Position numbers and translations under genes: made by a program
The notes under the pieces: model-generated
What the model was told of the DNA's origin: nothing
Database searches by the model: none
Seen by the model: only the letters and a program-made list of their open reading frames with translations
In this document: piece after piece, positions 17,159 through 39,926 of the stretch
Numbering within the stretch: the stretch's first letter is position 1
Layout of the letters: every line of letters starts with the position of its first letter
Source: a virus
Reading direction: 5' to 3' (one strand)
IMG/VR virus record: IMGVR_UViG_3300042569_001383
Span: 88,125 to 144,950 of that record
DNA: 56,826 nt

Positions 17159-18811
17159 TTAAAGAGTATTTAATCCGTGAACGTATACTTTTCCGTAGAA
17201 TTCTGGTCTAACCACTTTCTTCGCGTAACGTGTCATGACACCTTTACGTGGAGTGAAGTTGATTGGATCATATACTAATGGAGTCATAATCAACGGAATA
17301 TAAGGGCTAAATACAGCACCTGTTTCAAGGAATTGTGTTCCTCTGAATCCCATTAAGATTATGTTTTCTTTCATGTATGGGTTTTTGTATACAGTGTAAC
17401 GGTTATTGATAGCACCAATTTTTTGTACACCTGCTGCAAATTCCATTTTAGTTCCGTCAGTGTCTGCTGCAAATCCTGGGATAGACTCAAGAATTGTTGC
17501 TACTGCTGGACTAGTTACAAGGAAGTTAGCTCCACCACGCAATGTTTTTTGGTGAATTTTGTTAGATACTTTTTGAAGTTTAGTACCTAATGTTTGGAAC
17601 CATCCACCTTGAGTGTTGTAGAATCCGTCACCTGTCGCAGTTTGTTGAGTAAATCCTGTACCATTCCAGATGTTGTTGTTTTTAGCTGACCAATACTCAG
17701 TTGTTGGTGCTGCAGAAATTAACATATCTAAAATTTCCAAGTCAATTTCCATAGAAACATACTCAGATAACATTGAAGTTAATTCAGCTTCAGCATCAAT
17801 TGAATGGTAAGCGTTTAAATCTTGTGCAAACTCAGGTGTCCAAACTGCTTTCAACTTACGTGTTTTAGCAACGATTGGCTCTGATTGCATTTCCAAGTTC
17901 AATTCAGGGATATCAATGTCAGTACCTTGGTTGATTCCAGACGCACCTGATCCTTTAAATGGATTGGTATCTTCAAAATCACCTCTAGTAATATCATCTG
18001 GTTGTTTGCTATATGCTACAACGTATGCAGAAGTACCATTTAATCCTGCTGATGCAGATACAACAAATTCAATTCTACCCGTAGATGCATTGTATTTTGT
18101 AAATGCTGGCAAGTTCATTGCTGTAGTAATTGCAGATCCTGAAGTTAAAATAAATGAACGAACCGCGGTTGAATCAAAGTTAGTTAATGATGCAGTTGAT
18201 GCATATACTACTGTGTATCCTGTTAAATTTGAAGTATAATCACTATCAAAATTAACTGATCCAGATCCTGCAGATGCTGCAGATGCTGTTGTTGCAGCAA
18301 CCGATGCAGTTACCGAGTTAATTGAATATCCAAAACGTCCTGCTCCATATAAACCACCTGACGGGTCATTTGATGTACTTGTTACACCGAATAAAGAGTC
18401 ATCTGCGTCTGGAGAACCAAATGGATCGCCTGTTCTGTTAAGATTACCATTATCATCATCAAATCCTGGTTGCGCTGTACCATATTTAAAATCTAAATAA
18501 AAGATTAGACCTGATGGCAAATTCATTGGTTGAACTGAAACGAATTCTTTTGCTGCAAATTCAGCGAAAATTCTACGTACCAATGGAAGTGCTACACCTG
18601 CCCACTCTTCAGATCCATTTGCTGTACCTGTTTGTGATGATTCTTTTACTAATTGACGTGCTTGGTTTTCAAGCAATTGTGCCATACCTGCTTTTTCAGT
18701 CTCTGTACGAAGACCTTCTAGCAATCCAGTTTTTTCCCATTTTACAATCGTTGATTTAACGGCTGCTCTTTGTGAATTATCTGGACTTTGTAATAATGAA
18801 TTTAAACTCAT
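17159..18811 (-). CDS. gp23: Major capsid protein (T4 gp23-like)
   Basis: 550 aa (T4 gp23: 521); ATG at 18811 with AAAAGGAAAAC upstream. Features typical of gp23 are the N-terminal helical pro-region (residues 1-60), EEWAGVALPLVRRIFAEF, SVQPMNLPSGLIFYLDFKYG, then LEMQSEPIVAKTRKLKAVW, PEFAQDLNAYHSIDAEAEL, GANFLVTSPAVATILESI and the C-terminal MTPLVYDPINFTPRKGVMTRY. The pro-region should be removed by the prohead protease; LLE-N near residue 47 is a candidate cleavage site of the L/I-x-E type. An Ala/Ser/Thr-rich insert (about 145-260) probably forms a surface domain. No promoter motif precedes it; it appears to be read through from the core gene 31 nt upstream and is followed by a strong terminator. 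Confidence 0.95.
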   Translation of the reverse strand: MSLNSLLQSPDNSQRAAVKSTIVKWEKTGLLEGLRTETEKAGMAQLLENQARQLVKESSQTGTANGSEEWAGVALPLVRRIFAEFAAKEFVSVQPMNLPSGLIFYLDFKYGTAQPGFDDDNGNLNRTGDPFGSPDADDSLFGVTSTSNDPSGGLYGAGRFGYSINSVTASVAATTASAASAGSGSVNFDSDYTSNLTGYTVVYASTASLTNFDSTAVRSFILTSGSAITTAMNLPAFTKYNASTGRIEFVVSASAGLNGTSAYVVAYSKQPDDITRGDFEDTNPFKGSGASGINQGTDIDIPELNLEMQSEPIVAKTRKLKAVWTPEFAQDLNAYHSIDAEAELTSMLSEYVSMEIDLEILDMLISAAPTTEYWSAKNNNIWNGTGFTQQTATGDGFYNTQGGWFQTLGTKLQKVSNKIHQKTLRGGANFLVTSPAVATILESIPGFAADTDGTKMEFAAGVQKIGAINNRYTVYKNPYMKENIILMGFRGTQFLETGAVFSPYIPLIMTPLVYDPINFTPRKGVMTRYAKKVVRPEFYGKVYVHGLNTL

Positions 18812-21318: not shown

Positions 21319-21948
21319 TTATATCCTACATTTTCCATCTTCGCATAATATCGAGGTAATGATACCGTTTACGTCTGCGTATTTATTTTTTGTTATATTG
21401 TTATTAACTGATTCTCTTAGGCCCGTAGGCTTCATAAAAGCACCTTGCGTTGAAGGATTTGATACAAAGTCCCAACATATTAATTCAAAATCTTCTTGTA
21501 CTTCAACTGTGCCTTCATTTCTTAATTCTTTGACAGAACCTAATCCGCGAGATGAAATACCTAAAGTAATTCCGGCTTTGAACAATGATTTTAAAATATT
21601 ACCTGATGGTGTATCTAATATTTGAACTGCTCCTAATAAATCATTGCCTTCCCACCATATTTTTAAAATATTATGAGATACATTGTTTAAATTTACCACC
21701 ATCGATTCTGGGTGATCTAATTCTCCTAATGCACGGTGTTGGTCAATATATTCTTGTTGATATTTTTGACATTCACGCATTAATATATGTTTAGGATATA
21801 CGCGTCCGTTTTGATTTTTAGCACCAGCTCGTTGCAATACACCTTTTACAACATATCCACCCGGAATTCCGTATGAATCTCCAGATTGTTCATTCAATGA
21901 CCCAATTGGACGAAATGGCATATATTCTACAATTAATTGTTTTGACAT
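21319..21948 (-). CDS. gp21: Prohead maturation protease (T4 gp21-like)
   Basis: 209 aa (T4 gp21: 212); ATG at 21948 with AGGGGAG upstream, embedded in the stop of the previous gene. Motifs: NQNGRVYPKHIL at 45-56, GELDHPES with His79, and ITLGISSRGLGSV at 127-139 with the candidate catalytic Ser in GISSRG, as in the herpesvirus-like serine protease fold of T4 gp21. The enzyme activates itself and cleaves capsid and core proteins after L/I-x-E; a possible self-cleavage site LNEQ lies at 18-21. It lies between portal-associated genes and core/capsid genes, as in T4. Confidence 0.93.
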   Translation of the reverse strand: MSKQLIVEYMPFRPIGSLNEQSGDSYGIPGGYVVKGVLQRAGAKNQNGRVYPKHILMRECQKYQQEYIDQHRALGELDHPESMVVNLNNVSHNILKIWWEGNDLLGAVQILDTPSGNILKSLFKAGITLGISSRGLGSVKELRNEGTVEVQEDFELICWDFVSNPSTQGAFMKPTGLRESVNNNITKNKYADVNGIITSILCEDGKCRI

Positions 21949-23562: not shown

Positions 23563-25398
23563 TTATAAAATATTATTTTCATCTAATAATGTCCCAGAGT
23601 CATTATCAGTAGGTTTATTAGTTGTTATTGATTCTAATATCATTTTATTGGTTTTTTTGTATTTTGAACCATTCAATGTTTTTATAACATTTTCGTACGC
23701 AACATCTAATTTACGTTCACGTCTCGGATTAGGTAAAAATGCAGTTTTTTGATTTTCAGTATCAAATGCTTGGTCTATTTCTTTTTTACCGGTAGGATCC
23801 CATCCAAACGCGTTTTTGTGTTGTCCAAATTTAATTCCTTCTTTAGGACGTCCGCCTGGATCTTTTTGTTCAACATCATCCGAACTCATATGCATTGATG
23901 CTAAATCGTGAGGTGTTCCATATGACGTACCAGTTACTGCTGGATCATTTCCTTCTTGTTCAAGTTGATTTTGACGGAAACGAAGTTTTAAATCTTCAAT
24001 AACATTTGTACGTTCTGCTAACCATTGTTCTTCTGACATATTGAATATGAATTCATATATGTATTTGTCTGAAACTAGTTTTGAATCTTTCATTGCCGTT
24101 GCTAATGTCATTTTTTCTGTCATTAATGCAATTTTTTGTTGATCATAAACTATAGATGGCGCCGTTAATTGCAATTCAAATCCAATTAAATCTTCATCAT
24201 CAAATCCTTGTGCATATAAATGTATAATGGCTATTTTATACAATTCAGATGTAACAATTTTTTGTATGCGTTCAATTGTTCTTGCAAAACGAATATCCAT
24301 TGATGCTAATGTAGTTTTTCCTTCAACAGCTTCAGCATATCCTAAAAATGGTTTAGGAATCTTAAGTGCAGCCATCATTTTGTCTTTAACATAATTGATG
24401 TCATCAATTCCTGTAAATGTCATACCAGGAAGTGTATCAATTGCAGTTGAAGATTGTCCACCACGTACTGGCAAATAATAATCTTCTAACATGTTGTTCA
24501 AGTTAAATTTAAGATTATAATTTCCTGTATTTGGATCTACGTGTGGAATTTTTTTCATTTTATTGATAACTGCTTCCATGAATGAATCAACTTCATTAGG
24601 AGGTATATTACCAATATCAATTTTAAATATGCGTTTTTCTGGTGCACGCATTATACGATGTATAAGCATCGCATCCTCTAACATTGTTAATTTTTGAAAT
24701 TCTTTTCTTGCGCCTTCCAACATAGACTTACCGTACGGTAAAAAGTTTGAATCTGACAACATACGGAAATGTGCTACTTCAAACACATCATACATTAAAT
24801 TAGGACTAGATGCATGTCGAAATTTAATTTTATATTCGCCAGTTTCTTCATCAAATTCTTCCCAACGTTCAACTTCGTAACTAGAAAATGGACGTGCGTT
24901 AATAACTCCCAATTCGTTTGCAATGTCTAACTTTAAAAAGAAATCTCCGTATTTAGTTATGTTGCGAATCCATGGCCATAAATTAAATTCAATGTTCAAT
25001 ACATCGTAAAATAAATTGTAAAGAATTTTTTGTATGTTAGATTTGTTGGTTTTGATAGTTAAAATATCACCAAATTGGTCTTCCAATGTAGATTCATCTG
25101 CATATATATCTAATGCTGCACTGATAATAGGATCTTTATCCATCATTTCGTAATCAGTGTATAACTGCATACGATTTTGGTGCATATAATAATTAGAATC
25201 ATATCCACCCATTCCGCCAACACGATGGCGATTTGATCCATGCAATCTTGTATATCGGTCTGCTACTTTTGTTTGATTCAAGTTACCGGAAGATTGTAAA
25301 CGGTTTGTATCTACAATTTTAAGTTGATCTTTTCCAAACGTACGTACTATAACATTCGTAGCAAATAGATTCTGTAATCGTTTTCTTAATGATGCCAT
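23563..25398 (-). CDS. gp20: Portal vertex protein (T4 gp20-like)
   Basis: 611 aa (T4 gp20: 524). Diagnostic stretches are YTDYEMMDKDPIISAALDIY followed by ADESTLEDQ at 80-110, then YDVLNIEFNLWPWIRNITKY-type text, MLEDAMLIHRIMRAPEKRIF, NIPPNEVDSFMEAVINKM, PVRGGQSSTAIDTLPGMTFT and DDINYVKDKMMAALKIPKPF with GKTTLASMDIRFARTIERIQ. The dodecameric portal nucleates head assembly and forms the DNA entry channel. The C-terminal 120 residues (after ERTNVIEDLKLRFRQNQ) are extended and polar. It lies directly after terminase, as expected for the packaging pair; a promoter-like motif precedes it. Confidence 0.95.
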   Translation of the reverse strand: MASLRKRLQNLFATNVIVRTFGKDQLKIVDTNRLQSSGNLNQTKVADRYTRLHGSNRHRVGGMGGYDSNYYMHQNRMQLYTDYEMMDKDPIISAALDIYADESTLEDQFGDILTIKTNKSNIQKILYNLFYDVLNIEFNLWPWIRNITKYGDFFLKLDIANELGVINARPFSSYEVERWEEFDEETGEYKIKFRHASSPNLMYDVFEVAHFRMLSDSNFLPYGKSMLEGARKEFQKLTMLEDAMLIHRIMRAPEKRIFKIDIGNIPPNEVDSFMEAVINKMKKIPHVDPNTGNYNLKFNLNNMLEDYYLPVRGGQSSTAIDTLPGMTFTGIDDINYVKDKMMAALKIPKPFLGYAEAVEGKTTLASMDIRFARTIERIQKIVTSELYKIAIIHLYAQGFDDEDLIGFELQLTAPSIVYDQQKIALMTEKMTLATAMKDSKLVSDKYIYEFIFNMSEEQWLAERTNVIEDLKLRFRQNQLEQEGNDPAVTGTSYGTPHDLASMHMSSDDVEQKDPGGRPKEGIKFGQHKNAFGWDPTGKKEIDQAFDTENQKTAFLPNPRRERKLDVAYENVIKTLNGSKYKKTNKMILESITTNKPTDNDSGTLLDENNIL

Positions 25399-25444: not shown

Positions 25445-27022
25445 TTACAACAACCAAGTTAAACTTTCATCAGTTGAACCATTATTCCAAGTCCAACCCG
25501 TATCTTGACGTCGTTGGTTGTTTGTGTATATAACTGGGTCTGTTTTCGTAAAATTTGAGATTGCTCGTTTATTCAACTCAATTCCTTGTTGTCGTAATTT
25601 TAATGTAGAATCGCGTAACCATAATCCAATACAAAATGACATTACTAAATCGTCATTATATCCTTGTTGTGATTGTGCTTTACCATTAAGCCAAATAAAT
25701 ACTAGCAATTCTTGTATTAATCGTTTACTGCGAATCACCGGAGTTTTTTCTCGCATATACATTTCTAAAGCTGATATCATTAATGGACGAGTACGTGTTG
25801 AAGTCGTAACACCGGGAACCATTTGTGTTTTATCTTTCATATCATAACCTTTTTTCAATTGCACATCTGCATCCGTATATCCATCGTCGCGGTATGTGTA
25901 ATGTAGGTTTTGATATCCTCGATCAATTGCTGGTTGAATTGCGGCCCAACCAATATTGGCATTTTCAATTGCTAGTAATGCATTGTTCCATTCCGTTGCA
26001 ACTGTAACTAACATGTTACCGTATTCATTTGGCGGAATTTTTCCCTTGTACTCAGCAACTTGTTTTACGTCTTGTACATCGAATACGTGGAATGCAGAAT
26101 AATCACCACCATCGCCGCGTGCGACGTCAGCCACTACTAAATAATCGCGTGAATAGTCTGGATATTCCCATACCCAATAATTTCCGTCGAAGCCGCGTCT
26201 TTCAATTGGATCGATGCATTTTGATTCATATTCTAGCAATAATGGACCATCGACAACAGTATGTCCTGAACTTACAAAGTCACAATCACATTCTTGTGCT
26301 GCTCCACGTTCTCCAAGCAAACGTGTTTGTTCGTCACGCCAATCTTGATCGCGTTCTGGATGAACTGTCCAATGCAATTTAATTGTATGGAATCCGTTTA
26401 TGTCAGCTTCAGCATCAGCCCATGTTTGATGAAACCAATTACCAACACCGTTTGGAGTTGATAATACAATTGCACCCCCACCCGTAGATAATGTTGCTTG
26501 CGATGCTATCCATATTTCTTCAATGTTACGAATAAATGCAGCCTCATCAACTATTAATAGTGACAATGCTTCTGAACGTGCTCCCGTACCAGCAGATGAA
26601 ACTGCTTTAATTTGCGAACCGTTTTTAAATTTTAAAGATAATTTATTATCAGCTTCAACCGTACCTTTCAGCCAAGTTGGCAAGTTATCGTGCATTACAC
26701 GAACTTTTGTTACCAAGTTTTTTGCTACCTCTTGTGTTGTAGCAATAACTAATACGTTGAAATCTTCATTGAATAACATGCTCCATAATGCAAATCCAGC
26801 TGCTAATGTTGATATACCTAACTGACGTGATTTCAATATAACATTGTATCGATTATCACGTAATTCCGTTAATGAATCTTCCTGGAATGGAAACAAATTA
26901 AACTTAATTTTTCCACGTTTAGGATGTTGGATATAACAATAATTTCGCATAAAAAATACAGGATCTTTAGCACACATCATGTACTGTTGCTGTATTATTT
27001 GTTTTATTGTTGGTTGAGACAT
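25445..27022 (-). CDS. gp17: Terminase large subunit (T4 gp17-like)
   Basis: 525 aa (T4 gp17: 610). ATPase domain: FQEDSLTELRDNRYNVILKS with Walker A-like SRQLGIST at 65-72, Walker B LLIVDEAAF with D159-E160, and STPNG at 188-192. Nuclease domain: YLVVADVARGDGGDYSAFHV with Asp299 as first RNase-H-like acidic residue, LAIENANIGWA, and the late YNDDLVMSFCIGLWL with the third Asp pair. The enzyme packages DNA into proheads through the portal and cuts concatemers. The N-terminal part is shorter than in T4. No separate small terminase is recognised; the Cys-rich gene at 27725-28381 is the nearest candidate by position only. Confidence 0.96.
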   Translation of the reverse strand: MSQPTIKQIIQQQYMMCAKDPVFFMRNYCYIQHPKRGKIKFNLFPFQEDSLTELRDNRYNVILKSRQLGISTLAAGFALWSMLFNEDFNVLVIATTQEVAKNLVTKVRVMHDNLPTWLKGTVEADNKLSLKFKNGSQIKAVSSAGTGARSEALSLLIVDEAAFIRNIEEIWIASQATLSTGGGAIVLSTPNGVGNWFHQTWADAEADINGFHTIKLHWTVHPERDQDWRDEQTRLLGERGAAQECDCDFVSSGHTVVDGPLLLEYESKCIDPIERRGFDGNYWVWEYPDYSRDYLVVADVARGDGGDYSAFHVFDVQDVKQVAEYKGKIPPNEYGNMLVTVATEWNNALLAIENANIGWAAIQPAIDRGYQNLHYTYRDDGYTDADVQLKKGYDMKDKTQMVPGVTTSTRTRPLMISALEMYMREKTPVIRSKRLIQELLVFIWLNGKAQSQQGYNDDLVMSFCIGLWLRDSTLKLRQQGIELNKRAISNFTKTDPVIYTNNQRRQDTGWTWNNGSTDESLTWLL

Positions 27023-27405: not shown

Positions 27406-27741
27406 TTATTTTTTATTCTTGTTTGTTTTACTTAGTATGTTTTGTTTAGCTTGTTTAGCCGTTTTAGGTTTTTCAGTTTTAATTGTTTCTTTTGCTGTTT
27501 CTAAAACTTCTAATTCTTTTTCTGATTGTTTAATATCAGTTTTAATATCTTGTTTTTGTTCTTCAATTGCTTCAACTTTACCTGTTATGATATCAACTTG
27601 TTGTTTGTTATTATCAATTTGTTTGTCTAAATTGTCAAGCTGTTTTTCATTGGATTTTTTATTGCTAGCAATTAATATGCCAACGAACGCAACAATTGCA
27701 CCGACAATAATTGCCCAATATTTTTTAACAAACTTCTTCAT
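27406..27741 (-). CDS. Small N-anchored coiled-coil membrane protein
   Basis: 111 aa; AGAAGGAAAA before the ATG at 27741. MKKFVKKYWAIIVGAIVAFV places one membrane span at about 9-26 after a basic N-terminal patch (cytoplasmic by the positive-inside rule). Residues 35-90 are a Lys/Gln/Glu-rich heptad-like helix (DKQIDNNKQQVDIITGKVEA), and the C terminus is very basic. The plan of an N-in anchor plus periplasmic coiled coil is like an inner-membrane spanin (Rz), and it pairs with the downstream signal-bearing gene. It overlaps the upstream gene by 17 nt. No holin or endolysin was recognised nearby, so the lysis call stays tentative. Confidence 0.7.
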   Translation of the reverse strand: MKKFVKKYWAIIVGAIVAFVGILIASNKKSNEKQLDNLDKQIDNNKQQVDIITGKVEAIEEQKQDIKTDIKQSEKELEVLETAKETIKTEKPKTAKQAKQNILSKTNKNKK

Positions 27742-28381
27742 CTTGTTTTCCTTCTAATCGTTTTAAAAAATTTTCTTTGAATATATCGAATTGTTTCTGT
27801 ACAGTTTCTTCAAATTCTTCCGGAGTCATTTTCGCAGTCCATGTTTCTTTTTCTCCTGCAGAATTAGTAACAAATTGTGCTGCGGTTGTATATGCTTCTT
27901 TTAACATTTCAACATCGCGTTCTGCAGTTGCTAACCACGCTAATGCATTTTCTCGAATTTTATTTTTTTCGTATGAATCATATTCACCGGATTTTTTTAG
28001 TTCATGTTCCATTTCAATAGTGCAATCTAAGCACATGCCATGAATCTTTTGCATTTTTTGGTCTATACGATTTTTGCCAGAACATGTACATGTTTCTTTG
28101 CGACAATTGGGAAATGATCTTAGATCATCTCGTACTGATTGCAATACGTCGGTACTTTTTGTTTTCTTGATACGGAAACCGTCGTGCTGTTCAATAATGT
28201 GAACGAATCCCGTTTTTGGATCAGTTTCTTCCCAAACGTCTCCGATTTCATGACGTTCTGATTTACGTGCCATATCAGCCGTATCAGAGAATCCAATCGT
28301 TTTTTTGGTTTGAAACTTGTGAGTGCCGTCTATCATTTGTTGTACGGCTTTTATGTTTTGTAACTTGTTAGAATTTGACAT
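27725..28381 (-). CDS. Hypothetical Cys-rich, probably zinc-binding protein
   Basis: 218 aa. A cluster NCRKETCTCSGKN (Cys93, Cys98, Cys100) and HGMCLDC (His114, Cys117, Cys120) would suit a zinc site. The N-terminal part contains EIGDVWEETDPKTGFVHIIE and GFRIKKTKS, a strand-rich stretch; the C-terminal half is helical and acidic (ALAWLATAERDVEMLKEAYT, TPEEFEETVQKQFDIFKENF). I do not recognise the family with certainty; similar proteins occur in T4-like environmental phages near terminase. It may help packaging or carry another role; small terminase is possible by position but it lacks an obvious DNA-binding motif. Confidence 0.7.
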   Translation of the reverse strand: MSNSNKLQNIKAVQQMIDGTHKFQTKKTIGFSDTADMARKSERHEIGDVWEETDPKTGFVHIIEQHDGFRIKKTKSTDVLQSVRDDLRSFPNCRKETCTCSGKNRIDQKMQKIHGMCLDCTIEMEHELKKSGEYDSYEKNKIRENALAWLATAERDVEMLKEAYTTAAQFVTNSAGEKETWTAKMTPEEFEETVQKQFDIFKENFLKRLEGKQDEEVC

Positions 28382-28384
28382 ATA

Positions 28385-29281
28385 TTATTCTGTTTCTGAT
28401 TCTGTTTCTTTTGGTTGAGTTGATTTTATTTTGCTTAAACGACGTAAAATCATAATTTTTGCAATTCTTAAATCTTTGCTATCTAAATTTCCTAATGCAT
28501 TAGCTAATGGCTCGAATCCAGTATCAACTAAACTGTTAGGTCCGGATTGATCTGACAATGTTTCTTGCCAATATTTCAATGCAATTTTTTGTTTTGCTAA
28601 TTTTTCTTTTGCTTTATCTTCAGGTGTTGCTGTATCTGTTTCATCGCTTGGTTCAGTAACAGTAGCATCTGTTGGTGTATCAGTTGCTGGAGCAGTTGCG
28701 TCTGTAGGTGGCGTTGCAGGTGCAGCAGTATCTACCGGTGGAGTTGCCGGTGCTGTCATATCTGGCGCTGCCGTTGGATCTGTTGGCATAGCTGGTGCTG
28801 CTGGATCTGGTGTAGTAGCATCCGGTGCCGGTTCTGCATTTGGGTCTTCTACTGCATTTGGATCTTCTTGTTCTTCTTGTTCTATTAAACGTTTAACAAT
28901 AGTACGACGTACATATTCTCTAATTAAACGAGTACGTTGTTCTAATGTAAGATTTTCAACTTTATCTTTAATAGAATCTTTAGATTTTTTTGTTTCAGCG
29001 TCTTCGCGTTTCTTTAAACGTTTTGCTGCAATTTTAGGATCATATTCACCGGCTTCTAAATCTTTATAAAGACGATCATCCGCATCATATTTTGGAAACA
29101 TTTTACCGTCATCTTGAACAGCTTTATCTGTTTTACGTAATACGTTAAGTTGTTTATCGCCAGTTGTTTTAGGATTCAATTTACCATCTTTATCATCGTG
29201 TGTATAATCTTTTAAATCTTTACGATAAGTTGGTTTTTTGTTTTCCGGTTTTTTGTATTTACTTTTGTGCTTTTCTGCCAT
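28385..29281 (-). CDS. Hypothetical low-complexity protein (Pro/Ala/Thr/Asp-rich linker)
   Basis: 298 aa; AGGAAA before the ATG at 29281. Residues 1-110 are highly charged and Lys-rich; 110-137 form a helix (LEQRTRLIREYVRRTIVKRL) ending in L-I-E-Q, a possible prohead protease site. Residues 138-220 are a disordered run of Pro, Ala, Thr and Asp with repeated A-P-A-T-P-P and T-D-A-T units. The last 70 residues are helical again (ALANALGNLDSKDLRIAKIM). A soluble virion or scaffold-like protein is plausible. I do not assign a function. Confidence 0.72.
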   Translation of the reverse strand: MAEKHKSKYKKPENKKPTYRKDLKDYTHDDKDGKLNPKTTGDKQLNVLRKTDKAVQDDGKMFPKYDADDRLYKDLEAGEYDPKIAAKRLKKREDAETKKSKDSIKDKVENLTLEQRTRLIREYVRRTIVKRLIEQEEQEDPNAVEDPNAEPAPDATTPDPAAPAMPTDPTAAPDMTAPATPPVDTAAPATPPTDATAPATDTPTDATVTEPSDETDTATPEDKAKEKLAKQKIALKYWQETLSDQSGPNSLVDTGFEPLANALGNLDSKDLRIAKIMILRRLSKIKSTQPKETESETE

Positions 29282-29311: not shown

Positions 29312-31807
29312 TCATCGAGTGTATTTCAATACTCCTAGTATCTGATTAACTGGAGCAAATGCCCCTGTCATTTTATATGTATGCCCTCCGTATACAAATA
29401 CAACACCTTCCGAAGGTACAATTGTATCAAACCCTCCTAGTTTTTGTATACGACGAAGTTCTTGTTCTAATTTTTGTATTGTAGCAGGGTCGCCTTTTGT
29501 TTGTAATTCTCTGATAAGTTGTGCTAGTTCAGTTTTAATATCTTGAACTGTTTTGTTAGGATTTGCCGCTAAGTAATTAGATGCATTCTGTAATACAACT
29601 ACTCCTAATCTCAAAAATATATTTTCAAATGGCTCTAGGTTTTGTTTTTTGTATTGTTTGAAATCTTTTTTATCAAATGCATCAACCCAAGCTAAAAATT
29701 CTGGATTCGTAATTTGTTTTTTAAGTATAGATATGTTTGATGATTTATCGCCGAATGCCCAACGATACATTAATGTATTAACTAATTCGTCTGAAATTTC
29801 ATATCCTAATTGTTGTGCTTTTGTTTTGATAACATCACGCCACCACGCTTTGTGATATTCACTAATCAAATCAGTATCTTTTAAATTGTATTTTTGTTGC
29901 AATTGATTAATTTCATTGAAGAATGCCGCTTGTTGGTCTTCAAAATTATATACTCGTCCTAATTTAATACGTTGTGGCGGAATAAATGAAAATGTTTTTT
30001 GCATATGGGCATTTGCATCTTGAATAATTTGTTGCATTAATGCACCGCCGGCTAAATCAGTTAATACCGTAACACCTTTTTCATCATATTCAACTAAATT
30101 GTGAAATTGTAAATGTGCTTTATCATATGCAATTACATTTTTTGTAGCTGGATATATGATTTCCATGTTAGCAAATACTCGTCCATTTTTAAAAATTGCG
30201 TTTAATTTATCTGCTGGTATCATTCTAAACGATTCAGTTAAATCTTCAGCACATGCTCGATATGCTTCTACAACTTGTTTATAACCTTCCGCAGCTTCCG
30301 CTCCATTTTTAGCAACACTTTCTTGATATTTTCTTTCAAAGTCTGCAATAATTTCACTTGTTGTCATTGGATTAATTACAGTACCTTTATTACGAGCAAA
30401 ACCAATTTCACCATTTTTCCATGTTACTTGAATATTTTGGCCATCTGTTTTTTCAGTAACAGCAGCTTCGATATCCAATCGCCCGGCTAATGCTCGAGAT
30501 ACAATTTCTTTCATATCATTAAATGATAATCCGTGATCATCCCATGGGTGAGCCATATGTCCTGCAGCTCCTCCTTCGGTGATAAGTTCACCTTTACCCA
30601 TTGCTGATTCTATTTTATATACAATATCATCCGGATTATTTTTTTGCCATGGACGACGCTGTTTTTTAATTGTTCTAGGAATTAATTCAATCATTTTTTT
30701 GTTTGGATTCCATTGCAACATGAACGGCATATGAATTGGAACATCGAATTGGTAATCGGATCCAACACCGGTAGGACGTTCTAATCGCAGTTGCCTAGCA
30801 ATTTTATCGCCGTATTCTGTTGCTAAATCTTCGAAGAAATCACGAAGTTCATCCATGTATATAGGAGCTTCATTTCTAGGATCATTTAGTCGGTCAATAA
30901 AATGTGTAAACTTGCCTTGGAAATCTACATCAATTCCATACTCAGAAAAGAACCCATCAACTGCTTGTTCGATTGATGCTAATTCGTCACGTGTTATATA
31001 ATTTTCAGTCAATATAGATTCTATTAATTTTGCACCTGCAACTGTTTTTGTAAAATTATCAAAATCATATACAAAAGATTTGCCTCGATTTTTTTCTAGG
31101 AATGACCGTAATTGTTTTATTTTTGAACCATGTCTTGTTGTTTCTTTTGGATTCATTATTGCTTCAAATATATCGTCAACATCGCGATGTAATTCAGTTA
31201 CCCACCATGATTTTGAAAATAAAGATTCGCTTACTCCTCGCAACATGCTCCATATTTTTTTTACAACATCATCAGTTTGATTTGGATATGATGCACGAAA
31301 TGTTTCATAATCGCCATTTGCTAATGCAGCACGAATTGTTGATGCTGATATTGGTTCTCCGTTTGCATATAACAATGGATCGATATCAATGTTTAATTCA
31401 GTTGCATCAATTCCTGCAGGAATCGTACGTCCTTTTTTATCTCCAACTGTTTTATATTTATCTACATTAGGAACAAAATCCTTTGCTCGTACGTAGTCAT
31501 CTCCTTTAGTTGATGCTGCCATTGCAAATCTACCTTTTGCATCAGGTGGCAATGCAAATAGATATTCATATGCTGCCATGATAGGCGAATTAAATTCAGT
31601 TGGTTGAATTGTAATTTTTGGATTTTGATTTAGTAAATTGAATATTTTGATTGTATTTTCTCGAGTGATACCATCACGTTCTTTAGGTCCGATTAATAGT
31701 ATTACGCGTTCCGTTTCTGGAGATTCGGCATATCGTTCTGCTAATGCTAAATGTGCTCCGGTTAGCGGTTTAAACCCGCCAGGAAATAACGTTGTTATTT
31801 TATTCAT
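29312..31807 (-). CDS. Fusion of an NMN-adenylyltransferase-like nucleotidyltransferase and a ligase-like (KxDG) nucleotidyltransferase
   Basis: 831 aa. Residues 1-175 form a HIGH-superfamily nucleotidyltransferase: FPGGFKPLTGAHLALAERY at 8-26 (the GGFKP...GAH loop replacing the usual T/HxGH) and PISASTIRAAL at 152-162, the ISSTxIR motif of NMN/pantetheine adenylyltransferases. A linker (175-405) follows. From about 405 the sequence reads EGGAAGHMAHPWDDHGL, then VTEKTDGQNIQVTW with Lys453 in a ligase motif I K-x-D-G, an ARNKG segment at 471-475, FANMEIIYP at 545-553 (motif III-like), SEGVVF at 799-804 (motif IV) and YKMTG with Lys812 (motif V). A long insertion separates III from IV. The family of covalent nucleotidyltransferases includes RNA and DNA ligases and capping enzymes. 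Substrate is unknown. The two activities may be linked by ATP/NAD or act on the same RNA. Confidence 0.8.
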   Translation of the reverse strand: MNKITTLFPGGFKPLTGAHLALAERYAESPETERVILLIGPKERDGITRENTIKIFNLLNQNPKITIQPTEFNSPIMAAYEYLFALPPDAKGRFAMAASTKGDDYVRAKDFVPNVDKYKTVGDKKGRTIPAGIDATELNIDIDPLLYANGEPISASTIRAALANGDYETFRASYPNQTDDVVKKIWSMLRGVSESLFSKSWWVTELHRDVDDIFEAIMNPKETTRHGSKIKQLRSFLEKNRGKSFVYDFDNFTKTVAGAKLIESILTENYITRDELASIEQAVDGFFSEYGIDVDFQGKFTHFIDRLNDPRNEAPIYMDELRDFFEDLATEYGDKIARQLRLERPTGVGSDYQFDVPIHMPFMLQWNPNKKMIELIPRTIKKQRRPWQKNNPDDIVYKIESAMGKGELITEGGAAGHMAHPWDDHGLSFNDMKEIVSRALAGRLDIEAAVTEKTDGQNIQVTWKNGEIGFARNKGTVINPMTTSEIIADFERKYQESVAKNGAEAAEGYKQVVEAYRACAEDLTESFRMIPADKLNAIFKNGRVFANMEIIYPATKNVIAYDKAHLQFHNLVEYDEKGVTVLTDLAGGALMQQIIQDANAHMQKTFSFIPPQRIKLGRVYNFEDQQAAFFNEINQLQQKYNLKDTDLISEYHKAWWRDVIKTKAQQLGYEISDELVNTLMYRWAFGDKSSNISILKKQITNPEFLAWVDAFDKKDFKQYKKQNLEPFENIFLRLGVVVLQNASNYLAANPNKTVQDIKTELAQLIRELQTKGDPATIQKLEQELRRIQKLGGFDTIVPSEGVVFVYGGHTYKMTGAFAPVNQILGVLKYTR

Positions 31808-34587: not shown

Positions 34588-37500
34588 CAAACATGATTTA
34601 TTTGGCTGAAACCGTTATGTTTATCTACATTGATTAATGAATCAACCATATCTCGCATAGAATCTACGTGACTAATTATGATTGAAAAGTCAAATTTAGT
34701 ACGGAAATAATCAAACAAATTAACTACCGATGAAATATGTTCTGAATCTAACGAGCCCCATCCTTCGTCGATTGCAATAAAATTAGGTCTAGGCAATGCC
34801 GATACATTAATCAATGCAATTCTAATTGCCAATGAAGATATAAAACGTTCCATGCCGCTAGTTAATTCTAATGGCCAATAATTATCTTCATCATAAATAA
34901 TGTATCCGTTAATATTTTTACCATCAGTATTCATTACCATGTTGAAATCAACTATTTGGTTAAGTACATTGTTAATTTCAGCTTCAATTTTAGGTAATGC
35001 CTTTGTAACTAATTCATATGGAATTCCATCGCGTTTTACTGATTCTAAATAATATTCATATGCTTTGTATTCCGTTTCCAATGTTCGGTATCGTTCAAGT
35101 TGTTGCATTGCAGTTGATTTTTTTGTTTTTGCAACTTCAATCGCTCCATACATGTTTTTAATTTGAGTTTGAATCGTTTTGATTTCATTGCTAATGTCTG
35201 TAATGTTTTGTTTACATGTAGCAATTTGTTCATTAATTTGTATGTTGTGTTTAATTGCCGTTTCATTTTTCTTGAATGAATCTTGACGTTCAATCACAAT
35301 TTCCAATTCAGACTCGCGGGTTTGCAAATCGCTTTCTAATATTTGTAGTTGTAACTCATTGCGTTCTGCTGTAATATTTTCAGTTGCAAGTTTGTTACGT
35401 AATTCATTTAATTGTTCCGTTTTTTCAAAAACCGGTTTCAATTCTGTTATTTCTGAATTTAAACTTACAATTCGTTGTTTAGTGTTTTCTAATAAGTCTC
35501 TATCTTCTGTAATTGTGTTTTGTGCTTCAATTGCATTTTGTACGAAAACGTTAGATGTACAGTATTTACATTTCGGATCATATTCATGGTCGGAAAGATG
35601 ATTAATTTTTTCTTGTTTAGCATTTACTCGCTCCTGTTGTTGACGTAATTTTTGTAAAAGTATATTAACTGAATATTCTTTTTTCGAATATAATTCGGTT
35701 GCTGCATTAATAGCCGCAATATCATATTCTGCTAATTTTGTTTCACGTTCATCAATATTTGCATGTAACGTTTCTAAATCAAATTCCGCAGTTTCAATAT
35801 CCGTTTGTATTGATTCAATTAATTGAATTAAATCTTGTTCTTGTTTTTTTAATTCGTTGATATCTGGCCCATCATACGTTGTTGGCATTTTAGTTTCAAT
35901 CAATGAAACAATTCGTTCTTGTAAAACATTTCGCTGTTCTTGCAATACATCTTCTTTTGTTTCTAATGTATTAATGTTGTCTTGATTGTCAGAAATAATT
36001 GTGTCTGCAGTTATGATTATATCAGCAAAATCAGTTTTTTTATAATCTTTTAAACGTCCAGCTGTCTCTTTTATTTCATCGGCTGCCAATTGATACAATT
36101 GTTCAAACACCGTGATGTCTAAGAATTGTGAAAGTAAATCTTTGCGTTCTTTTTGCGATTTTTCAATGAAATTGTTATTGTCGGCTTGCAATGAAAATGC
36201 CGTTAAAATGAAATCATCATATGTTCCTAGATAACGACGAATGTTTTTATTTGTTTCACTACGTTCTTCTCCATTAAGATTATCAGCATCGGTATAAAAA
36301 TCCACATCAACTTTTACATGTGATTCTTTCTTTTTATTTTGAGTACCACGACGTTCGATAGTATAAATTGTGCCGTTCATTTCAAAACGAAATACACCTC
36401 GGAACCAAGTTTTTTTGTTGTTTAAAACTTCGTTTGCTTTTCCGGTTTTGCTACATTTATCAAATATCGTATAAGTTATTGCATCTAATAAACTAGATTT
36501 ACCTGAAGTGTTTGCCGCAAACAATCCGCAAACATTTGACAAATTTTCAAAATTAATTAAATTGCCTTCTCCATAAGAAAACATGTTGTCAAATTCAAAT
36601 GATACGGGATGCCATGTAGTATGGCGTATTGATTCTACTGCCGGCAGTTTTGAATTTATAGTTCTATTAATATGTCGTATAGCATCAACTTCTTCTGCAG
36701 TTGCTTGTGGAAAATTTGTATCAATATATTCTGTCAATAAAATATTTTGATATTCAACGTCACGTACATTTCCAATAGCCAAATTATTGCTAGTAGTTGC
36801 TGATGCATGTTCAATTGTGCGTTGAATTGTTATGTCTTGCACATCGTATTTTTTACGAATCGTTGCAATTAATTTTTTCATATCAGCCGCACTAGTGCCG
36901 TTAAACTTGATTCTAATTCTAGGTTTAACTGGCATACGATGTGGATGCGAAACAATTTTATCGCCTTGTGTTTCCAACGTCACATAACCGTAATCATTTT
37001 GTATTTGCGCAAATTCTGCTGTACGTGATTCTAAATCCCATACTAATATTCCATGGTCTAATGCTTCGCCATGATTTTGTTGTATCAAACTACCTGGATA
37101 TGCAATTGTTCTTGCATCATCTAAAAATTGAGCTGGTTTATGAATATCTCCTAACAAAGTAATATCATGTCCTGCAAACAATGCCGTTGTAACATGTTCA
37201 TTTGAAATTTGGTATCCAATATCAGTTTTCGCAGTATTTACAGCGCCATGATGCAATGCAATTTTATAACCTGCTTGAAAATCTTTAGCCATTACGTATT
37301 CAGCTGGCGTTTTATCTACTGCCATATGATTCCAAGTAACGCCTCCTAATTCAAACAATCCGTTCTCTTTAATAAAATAAATGTTTGGATTTCGTATAAC
37401 ATCTAAAACAGGACTAACTGCATCGACGCGATGCATATTATTCAAATTCATGTCATGATTACCAAGAATTACAATTGTAGGAATTGTAAATCCATTAAAA

Positions 37501-37733
37501 AAATCAACTAGCATTTGTACTAGTTCTGGCGACATATCCAATTTGCTATGAACTATATCCCCGGTAACTACTGCTATACTATTTCCGGTGCAATTCGCTT
37601 CAATGTAATCAAATAAATTTTGAAATACCGTACGATATTCGCCATGGCGTTTTAATGTTCTAATATGTATATCAGAAACATGAAATATTTTATCAATTTT
37701 ATCGATTCCGCAATCGATTTGTTTTATGTCCAT
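34587..37733 (-). CDS. gp47-gp46: Single-chain Mre11-Rad50 type recombination nuclease (T4 gp47-gp46 fusion)
   Basis: 1048 aa. Residues 1-270 are an SbcD/Mre11-like phosphodiesterase: SDIHIRT with Asp21-His23, GDIVH at 58-62, GNHDMN at 91-96, HHGAV at 161-165 and GDIHKP at 195-200. After a linker, residues 370-1048 are SbcC/Rad50: SYGEGNLINFENL, Walker A AANTSGKSS around 406-414, long coiled coils, zinc hook CKYC at 722-725, signature LTSGMERFISSLAIRIAL at 957-974 and Walker B NFIAIDEGWGSLD at 984-996. The two proteins are separate genes in T4; here one frame carries both, with no stop between. The enzyme resects DNA ends for recombination-dependent replication. The start overlaps the primase gene by 10 nt, so primase and nuclease are co-translated. 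Confidence 0.93.
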   Translation of the reverse strand: MDIKQIDCGIDKIDKIFHVSDIHIRTLKRHGEYRTVFQNLFDYIEANCTGNSIAVVTGDIVHSKLDMSPELVQMLVDFFNGFTIPTIVILGNHDMNLNNMHRVDAVSPVLDVIRNPNIYFIKENGLFELGGVTWNHMAVDKTPAEYVMAKDFQAGYKIALHHGAVNTAKTDIGYQISNEHVTTALFAGHDITLLGDIHKPAQFLDDARTIAYPGSLIQQNHGEALDHGILVWDLESRTAEFAQIQNDYGYVTLETQGDKIVSHPHRMPVKPRIRIKFNGTSAADMKKLIATIRKKYDVQDITIQRTIEHASATTSNNLAIGNVRDVEYQNILLTEYIDTNFPQATAEEVDAIRHINRTINSKLPAVESIRHTTWHPVSFEFDNMFSYGEGNLINFENLSNVCGLFAANTSGKSSLLDAITYTIFDKCSKTGKANEVLNNKKTWFRGVFRFEMNGTIYTIERRGTQNKKKESHVKVDVDFYTDADNLNGEERSETNKNIRRYLGTYDDFILTAFSLQADNNNFIEKSQKERKDLLSQFLDITVFEQLYQLAADEIKETAGRLKDYKKTDFADIIITADTIISDNQDNINTLETKEDVLQEQRNVLQERIVSLIETKMPTTYDGPDINELKKQEQDLIQLIESIQTDIETAEFDLETLHANIDERETKLAEYDIAAINAATELYSKKEYSVNILLQKLRQQQERVNAKQEKINHLSDHEYDPKCKYCTSNVFVQNAIEAQNTITEDRDLLENTKQRIVSLNSEITELKPVFEKTEQLNELRNKLATENITAERNELQLQILESDLQTRESELEIVIERQDSFKKNETAIKHNIQINEQIATCKQNITDISNEIKTIQTQIKNMYGAIEVAKTKKSTAMQQLERYRTLETEYKAYEYYLESVKRDGIPYELVTKALPKIEAEINNVLNQIVDFNMVMNTDGKNINGYIIYDEDNYWPLELTSGMERFISSLAIRIALINVSALPRPNFIAIDEGWGSLDSEHISSVVNLFDYFRTKFDFSIIISHVDSMRDMVDSLINVDKHNGFSQINHV

Positions 37734-39380: not shown

Positions 39381-39926
39381 TCACCAATCTACTAATACTA
39401 TTTTATTGTTCCACATCATTACGTTTTGTGAACTGAAATCTAAATCTAAATCAAATTCCGGAATGTTTAATTTGTCAACATCTCGTTGCAATGCACGTAA
39501 AAAATTAACTAATTCGACTGACGTATCTCTTGCACCATCCGCATCCAGAAAATCAAATATTGAAACTTCGCCTCCTTCACTTCTTGCAAATTGTTTGAAT
39601 CGATTTAAAAAGGAATCAATTTGATTGACCATGTTCGACGAAATAGGATTGGCATTTGCCATTATAAACATATGTTCTTGGTCATTAACATAATACACCG
39701 GTATAAACGTTGTAAATTCATCCCAACGTCCTACAATACGAGTTGCAACTTCAAATTCATCTCGTTCGGTAGTAACTTTAAAAACTTTGTCTGCTCCGTT
39801 AATTTCATATACTCGACCATTATCACCGCGTCCAAGAAATTGGAATTGTTTGTTTCGTATTTTATCTAATAATTGAGAAACCTCTGATTCAGCAATTTCT
39901 GTTAATAATTGTTTTAAACGTATCAT
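39381..39926 (-). CDS. Minimal kinase-like protein (N-lobe plus catalytic loop, no C-lobe)
   Basis: 181 aa; ATG overlaps the stop of the preceding gene (ATGA). Glycine-rich loop LGRGDNGRVYEI at 31-42, VFKVT with Lys50, EFEVATRIV with acidic residue near 57-59, FIMANANP hinge-like at 87-94, the catalytic-loop form DLDFSSQNVMMW with Asp163 and Asn168, and IVLVDW with Asp180 as the DFG-equivalent. The chain ends directly after that W. The pattern is of the aminoglycoside-phosphotransferase/protein-kinase-like superfamily, in which the metal-binding Asp, Asn and Asp are retained. Similar short kinase-like proteins may exist in T4-like phages; a substrate cannot be guessed. It may be active or a pseudokinase. 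Confidence 0.75.
   Translation of the reverse strand: MIRLKQLLTEIAESEVSQLLDKIRNKQFQFLGRGDNGRVYEINGADKVFKVTTERDEFEVATRIVGRWDEFTTFIPVYYVNDQEHMFIMANANPISSNMVNQIDSFLNRFKQFARSEGGEVSIFDFLDADGARDTSVELVNFLRALQRDVDKLNIPEFDLDLDFSSQNVMMWNNKIVLVDW

Follow-up and report, generated by a model that had tools for sequence, protein, structure and literature searches.

Why does a T4-like phage encode, among its head genes, a single chain that joins an NMN-adenylyltransferase-like enzyme to a ligase? The question is raised by a gene found in a 56,826-nucleotide stretch of viral DNA (the window), which is part of a 144,950-base IMG/VR virus record carrying T4-type head and tail genes. The first-pass annotation had placed a fusion ORF at 29312-31807. 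Both the coordinates and the length of 831 residues proved exact, but the ORF is read from the minus strand (31807→29312). The modules of the protein, referred to as P0001, its motifs and the neighbouring genes are listed in Table 1.

Table 1. Modules and motifs of P0001 and genes of the surrounding head operon (window coordinates).
Feature	Coordinates	Strand	Basis
NMNAT-like + middle module + RNA-ligase-like fusion (P0001), 831 aa	29312..31807	-	ORF, homologues, purifying selection
Nucleotidyltransferase module, residues 1-190, HIGH superfamily, NMNAT/PPAT fold	31238..31807	-	Foldseek, profile, PF01467
GGFKPLTGAH nucleotide-binding motif, TxxH form	31751..31780	-	Alignment, motif tally
ISASTIR motif (ISxTxxR, NMNAT-type)	31331..31351	-	S154 and R159 invariant in alignment
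Optional middle module, residues 264-405	30593..31018	-	Many relatives without it; low-confidence fold
RNA-ligase-fold module, residues 406-831	29315..30592	-	AF2, Foldseek, PF09414
EGGAAGHMAHPW, conserved N-terminal element of the ligase module (GGxxGHxxHP)	30542..30577	-	70-member alignment
Ligase motif I, EKTDG (K453)	30440..30454	-	Invariant, 70/70
Ligase motif III region, FANMEIIY (E549)	30152..30175	-	Glu invariant
Helical region between motifs IIIa and IV, residues ~585-795	29423..30055	-	AF2 secondary structure
Ligase motif IV, EGVVF (E800)	29396..29410	-	Invariant
Ligase motif V, YKMTG (K812)	29363..29377	-	Invariant
298-aa downstream gene, freshwater lineage only	28385..29281	-	Kept in 109/111 freshwater loci
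218-aa protein between ligase and terminase, conserved neighbour	27725..28381	-	111/111 freshwater, 42/51 other loci
Terminase large subunit	25445..27022	-	phrog_2, 4e-46
Portal protein	23563..25398	-	phrog_213, 4e-61
Prohead (head maturation) protease, T4 gp21-like	21319..21948	-	phrog_207, 2.2e-56
Major head protein	17159..18811	-	phrog_138, 4e-68

A chance or artefactual origin of the fusion is ruled out by the presence of a 100% identical ORF in a second, independent assembly of this virus (L001), by more than 100 homologous ORFs and by dN/dS values not exceeding 0.18. The fusion occurs at 60-90% identity in about 80 further viral contigs, and environmental T4-like contigs carrying an NMNAT–ligase fusion number more than 100. 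In the P0001 family, dN/dS ranges from 0.05 to 0.18 in all three modules, which is indicative of purifying selection. A nucleotidyltransferase signature was detected in 126 of the 145 ligase ORFs that extend upstream by over 300 residues. Of the other 19, most start at a contig end, and two (L162 and L165) have an ISxTxxR-type motif. The motifs on which the first reading of the gene relied are all in place, namely PGGFKPLTGAH (H19) and ISASTIR (153-159) in the N-terminal half, and EKTDG (K453), FANMEIIYP (E549), EGVVF (E800) and YKMTG (K812) in the C-terminal half.

The N-terminal half had been regarded as adenylyltransferase-like, and both structure and profile searches agree. Residues 1–190 are modelled by AlphaFold with a pLDDT of around 85, and their Foldseek matches are nicotinate/NMN adenylyltransferases and PPAT (8aih, E 1.8e-4; 2qjo; 1yum). 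The profile of the module matches PPAT/NaMNAT sequences in the PDB at 1.9e-6 to 4e-6, and the corresponding modules of relatives match PF01467 (CTP_transf_like). At the HxGH position, the window lineage has TGAH, whereas relatives feature the canonical HSGH or HRGH; TxxH in place of HxGH is the form seen in CoaD. Since P0001 scores 12.7 bits against the curated NMNAT family TIGR00482, the cut-off of which is 112, the module is termed only NMNAT-like.

The C-terminal half had been described as a KxDG ligase, a claim borne out by structure prediction, which gave a ligase fold, and by the fact that RNA ligases are its only consistent fold neighbours in the PDB. Residues 406–831 modelled alone with AF2 reached a pLDDT of 88.4 and a pTM of 0.85. 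The top 13 Foldseek matches, although weak (E 2.7e-3 to 2e-2, low TM), comprise RNA ligases exclusively (T4 Rnl1, fungal Trl1, archaeal Rnl and T4 Rnl2), and DNA ligases rank below them. Of 70 diverse members, 35 match the Pfam family RNA_ligase (PF09414; best 0.0012), and at most 3 match any other family; the PF09414 score of the window protein itself is below the curated cut-off. Comparison of the ligase profile with PDB sequences yielded chance matches only, and an hhalign comparison with the phage's own RNA ligase was not significant.

Residues K453, D455, G456, R472, E549, Y561, H569, E800, G801, K812, T814 and G815 are invariant in the 70 ligase modules, and motifs III (Glu), IV (EG) and V (Lys) occur in the expected order. 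The helical region of ~210 residues that separates motifs IIIa and IV is an unusual layout for a ligase, and the chain stops ~16 residues past motif V. From these features we infer that the module, with its predicted catalytic activity, represents a divergent family of RNA ligases whose domains are arranged in an unusual way.

The element EGGAAGHMAHPW had been singled out as an additional signature of the ligase part. This holds for its core, as the GG pair, G416 and H417 are invariant and H420 and P421 are conserved in 69 of 70 members, but not for the leading E, found in only 54 of 70. The EGG motif was also considered as a general prohead-protease site ([LI]xE|GG) and was rejected, the Glu being replaced by Met in 15/70 and by Cys in 1/70 members. 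In the window lineage, LITE|GG sits at the module junction; this match carries little weight because P0001 contains nine [LI]xE sites, several of which are located inside domains. In two relatives, an HNH-like insert of ~230 residues that bears a zinc finger is placed in frame within the fusion (L071:6001-9195; L064:6001-9285), at the conserved EGG|GGAAGHM codons, which suggests that the ligase signature has been the target of a homing element. An intein or a group I intron was discarded, as no Rfam match and no intein-like C-terminal junction were found.

The optional middle module is a standalone protein in the Methylophilales phage Melnitz and makes up the C-terminal part of a Sinorhizobium phiM12 protein; PDB and Pfam searches gave no match, and its model is of low confidence. 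A different insert, of ~170 residues, follows the nucleotidyltransferase in the freshwater contigs L148 (2263-2900), L150 and L146. It features an IVGDSIATGI motif and resembles SGNH/GDSL hydrolases, with no match in Pfam.

The association of the two enzymes is recurrent. In marine relatives, PolyA_pol/CCA-adding and HD domains are found in the same chain as the fusion (PolyA_pol is present also in L205); others feature a P-loop kinase of the AAA_33/Zeta-toxin type, and Zn-protease domains are added in some multi-domain marine versions. One open frame, exceeding 2,094 residues in length (L162:3-6284), encodes CCA-adding, HD, nucleotidyltransferase, conserved 'DDGP' and ligase modules. In a jumbo phage (L161/L083), the ligase stands alone and the nucleotidyltransferase is encoded by the next gene. 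The cyanophage T4-GC71 proteins, detected by tblastn in 468 phage records, carry KWDG...EGFV...K motifs. A HIGH nucleotidyltransferase gene directly follows T4-GC71 in S-PRM1, S-RSM4, S-CAM3, S-RIM2, Syn19 and S-SM1. The two are fused in S-PM2 and lie one gene apart in Stenotrophomonas phage DLP_6. Xanthomonas phage X1 and Stenotrophomonas phage Moby have other ligase-like genes, each directly followed by a HIGH nucleotidyltransferase gene. No nucleotidyltransferase neighbour of the ligase-like gene was seen in HTVC008M or S-SSM7. Two genes past the T4-GC71 ligase-like gene, the Pelagibacter phage HTVC008M encodes a separate P-loop protein (L251:3518-4180) that starts with MIPFILKEGLYDPGIFKAFFLAGGPGSGKT and resembles the fused kinase module of marine polyproteins.

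Homology of the cyanophage ligases to P0001 rests on motif order, on a similar H..H.ED element and on one fold match, to an S-PM2 entry (Foldseek, E 5.7e-5) that, by length and organism, is probably the 591-aa S-PM2 gene; profile comparison (hhalign) of the ligase with the T4-GC71 family was not significant. The first-pass annotation knew of no described protein with this pairing. A literature search for an NMNAT–RNA-ligase fusion or pairing indeed retrieved no paper describing it, and databases name these proteins only 'cytidyltransferase-like'; the pairing is not, however, peculiar to one chain, being a family-wide fusion and occurring as adjacent genes in several phage groups.

We tentatively propose, giving the idea slightly less than an even chance, that these genes define an undescribed phage family of paired NMNAT-like and divergent RNA-ligase-like enzymes, which would be packaged in the head in many lineages and would reseal RNA early in infection. 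P0001 would be a late, head-operon two-enzyme chain, in which a nucleotidyltransferase is joined to a putative ATP-dependent ligase of Rnl1/Trl1-like RNA-ligase fold. Whether fused or encoded by neighbouring genes, the pair would be kept together and in many lineages enter the cell along with the phage DNA. Once inside, the ligase module would adenylylate its own Lys453 and rejoin RNA that host defence nucleases have cut, tRNA being the likeliest target. The NMNAT-like module would use ATP as the AMP donor for a phosphorylated acceptor, most probably NMN, yielding NAD+.

RNA repair is favoured because relatives have acquired domains that act on RNA ends, the CCA-adding, HD and kinase domains pointing to end-healing partners of RNA ligases. 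Among the three roles suggested at first, it provides the best fit, end-joining is possible, and RNA capping found no support. Speaking against RNA repair, the record already contains an RNA-repair cluster outside the window (G000 C1:23953-27386), consisting of an OB-fold PF09414 RNA ligase of the PHA02142 type, a CCA-adding enzyme, a PNK-like P-loop kinase and a HAD_PNKP phosphatase, and a second RNA ligase is thus not obviously needed.

The genomic setting of the gene, which the first-pass annotation did not mention, is highly conserved. At loci with enough flanking sequence, the terminase gene is found downstream of the fusion or ligase gene in 111/111 freshwater and 50/51 other, mostly marine, cases, and the portal gene nearly always comes next. 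The 218-aa neighbour is present also in Mel-JY01 and L082. The near-invariant position directly before terminase and portal would suit a ligase that seals nicks in the DNA entering the head and acts with the terminase, the nucleotidyltransferase being an accessory. A DNA-sealing role at packaging is possible also because no DNA ligase (PF01068/PF01653) was found in the 145-kb record, which may, however, be incomplete. We consider this explanation unlikely, since RNA ligases come out ahead of DNA ligases as fold neighbours, and relatives are fused to CCA-adding and other RNA-type domains. Moreover, the X1 and Moby pairs and the cyanophage pairs, the latter found near DNA-metabolism genes, are not located at the terminase.

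Alternatively, the NMNAT half could make NAD+ from NMN to counter NAD-depleting defences, the ligase having a secondary or regulatory role. NAD+ salvage is known in phages (PMC9503650), the fold and motifs of the nucleotidyltransferase are NMNAT-like, and the L221 module has archaeal NMNATs as best matches (4yp5/1ej2, ~2.5e-5). Phages with NadM, however, always have NadV (PMC9503650), whereas no NadV/NAMPT (nicotinamide phosphoribosyltransferase, PF04095) was found in the 144,950-base record, which weakens NAD+ synthesis as the purpose of the nucleotidyltransferase. As this explanation also leaves the invariant ligase active site and the RNA-end domains of relatives unaccounted for, we rate it as rather improbable.

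The question of delivery bears on a further alternative, in which P0001 is an ordinary late RNA repair enzyme that stays in the cytosol, its operon position being historical. The setting is that of a packaged effector: the gene lies among head and packaging genes, and a prohead protease is encoded in the window. T4 gp21 cleaves after L/I-X-E, and the 10 N-terminal residues of IPIII are enough for packaging (PMC9026906). An early [LI]xE occurs in 23 of 29 complete non-freshwater N-termini, compared with 83 of 287 other ORFs of the same contigs (Fisher 1.5e-7, the rows being related), and in 9 of 13 lineage representatives, compared with 3.35 expected by shuffling. T4-GC190, the nucleotidyltransferase partner in cyanophages, was detected by mass spectrometry in purified S-SM1 virions (PMC3037559). 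The N-terminus of S-SM1 GC190 reads MKKFSAFLNE|A. The T4 targeting peptide, which we take to be MKTYQEFIAE, is in the same register.

No N-terminal capsid-targeting peptide ([LI]xE) is present in the window protein, and only distant cousins (L149/L150) carry one. Packaging of P0001 is accordingly suggested by its relatives only. The lack of a targeting peptide speaks for the cytosolic enzyme, as does the fact that several RNA ligases with distinct targets are common in phages (PMC7824862). Targeting-like peptides in most non-freshwater relatives and the detection of T4-GC190 in virions speak against it, and overall we find it to have a low probability. The virion-packaging evidence in relatives, too, had been absent from the first-pass annotation. 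That an injected ligase fold AMPylates or RNAylates host proteins instead of joining RNA ends is very improbable: multi-domain head-encoded chains do resemble the host-modifying polyvalent proteins (PMC5512222), but the full ligase motif set is invariant, and the domains that accompany it in relatives are enzymes of RNA ends.

Five genes of the record share an M..L..[IL][IL].E N-terminus, with Glu at position 10 (for instance, MIRLKQLLTE and MIRLKDILKE), which resembles the T4 capsid-targeting peptide. They map to window positions 39381-39926 and to positions 34647-35393, 37000-37713, 71116-71565 and 71575-71991 of record G000. The pattern, chosen after some of the genes had been seen, is expected 0.17 times by shuffling. 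By eye, the protein encoded at window 39381-39926 looks like a small protein kinase; it has no Pfam match.

If the paired enzymes are RNA repair enzymes delivered by the virion, as we propose, they may serve as a repair kit that enters the cell along with the viral DNA. RNA repair would then be in place before any phage gene is expressed, with a bearing on how phages survive tRNA-cutting and NAD-depleting immunity. Two of the most widespread cyanophage genes labelled 'hypothetical/cytidyltransferase', of which one has already been detected in virions, would gain a testable joint function. We see as doubtful the broader notion of an undescribed two-enzyme system, spread across freshwater and marine T4-like phages, cyanophages, jumbo phages and phages of Xanthomonas and Stenotrophomonas, and often delivered in the head and acting as an injected kit against RNA-cutting or NAD-depleting defences. 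In its furthest form, nucleotidyltransferase and ligase would act in sequence on one substrate; for instance, the former might adenylylate an RNA 5' end or build an adenylylated dinucleotide for the latter to use. Such a system could be categorically new.

The component enzymes are known, and what is absent from the papers searched is their stable pairing, its spread, the head-operon position and the likely delivery. T4 RNA ligase 1 and fungal Trl1 (Rnl1-type) are the best solved neighbours of the ligase module (9do4, 8rbj, 6n67) and share with it the motif order I, III, IIIa, IV, V. P0001 differs from them in having no sequence-level match, a helical region between IIIa and IV and no C-terminal domain. 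NadM (NMNAT-Nudix) and NadD/CoaD share the fold and the GxFxPxxGH/ISxTxxR motifs with the N-terminal module; in P0001, the first His of HxGH is replaced by Thr and the partner is a ligase instead of Nudix. In known phages NadM is fused to Nudix and not to a ligase (PMC9503650), as the first-pass annotation had stated for phage KVP40.

Polyvalent proteins, T4 Alt and internal proteins are likewise multi-domain and encoded with head or packaging genes, and are packaged and injected (PMC5512222, PMC9026906); RNA ligase and HIGH nucleotidyltransferase are not among the domains described in the passages searched. The cyanophage T4-GC71 and T4-GC190 ('cytidyltransferase') proteins likewise combine a KxDG...EGxV ligase-like protein with an adjacent or fused HIGH nucleotidyltransferase, and an HxxHxED-type element precedes motif I. 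Unlike P0001, they are often encoded by two genes that are not at the terminase, and profile comparison does not link the ligase halves. In the cultured Microcystis phage Mel-JY01, the protein WWT39297.1 ('cytidylyltransferase like protein') is the same fusion, located before the terminase and with a ligase 34% identical to that of P0001, from which it differs in lacking the middle module and in carrying a targeting-like N-terminal peptide, MGKLINILLSE.
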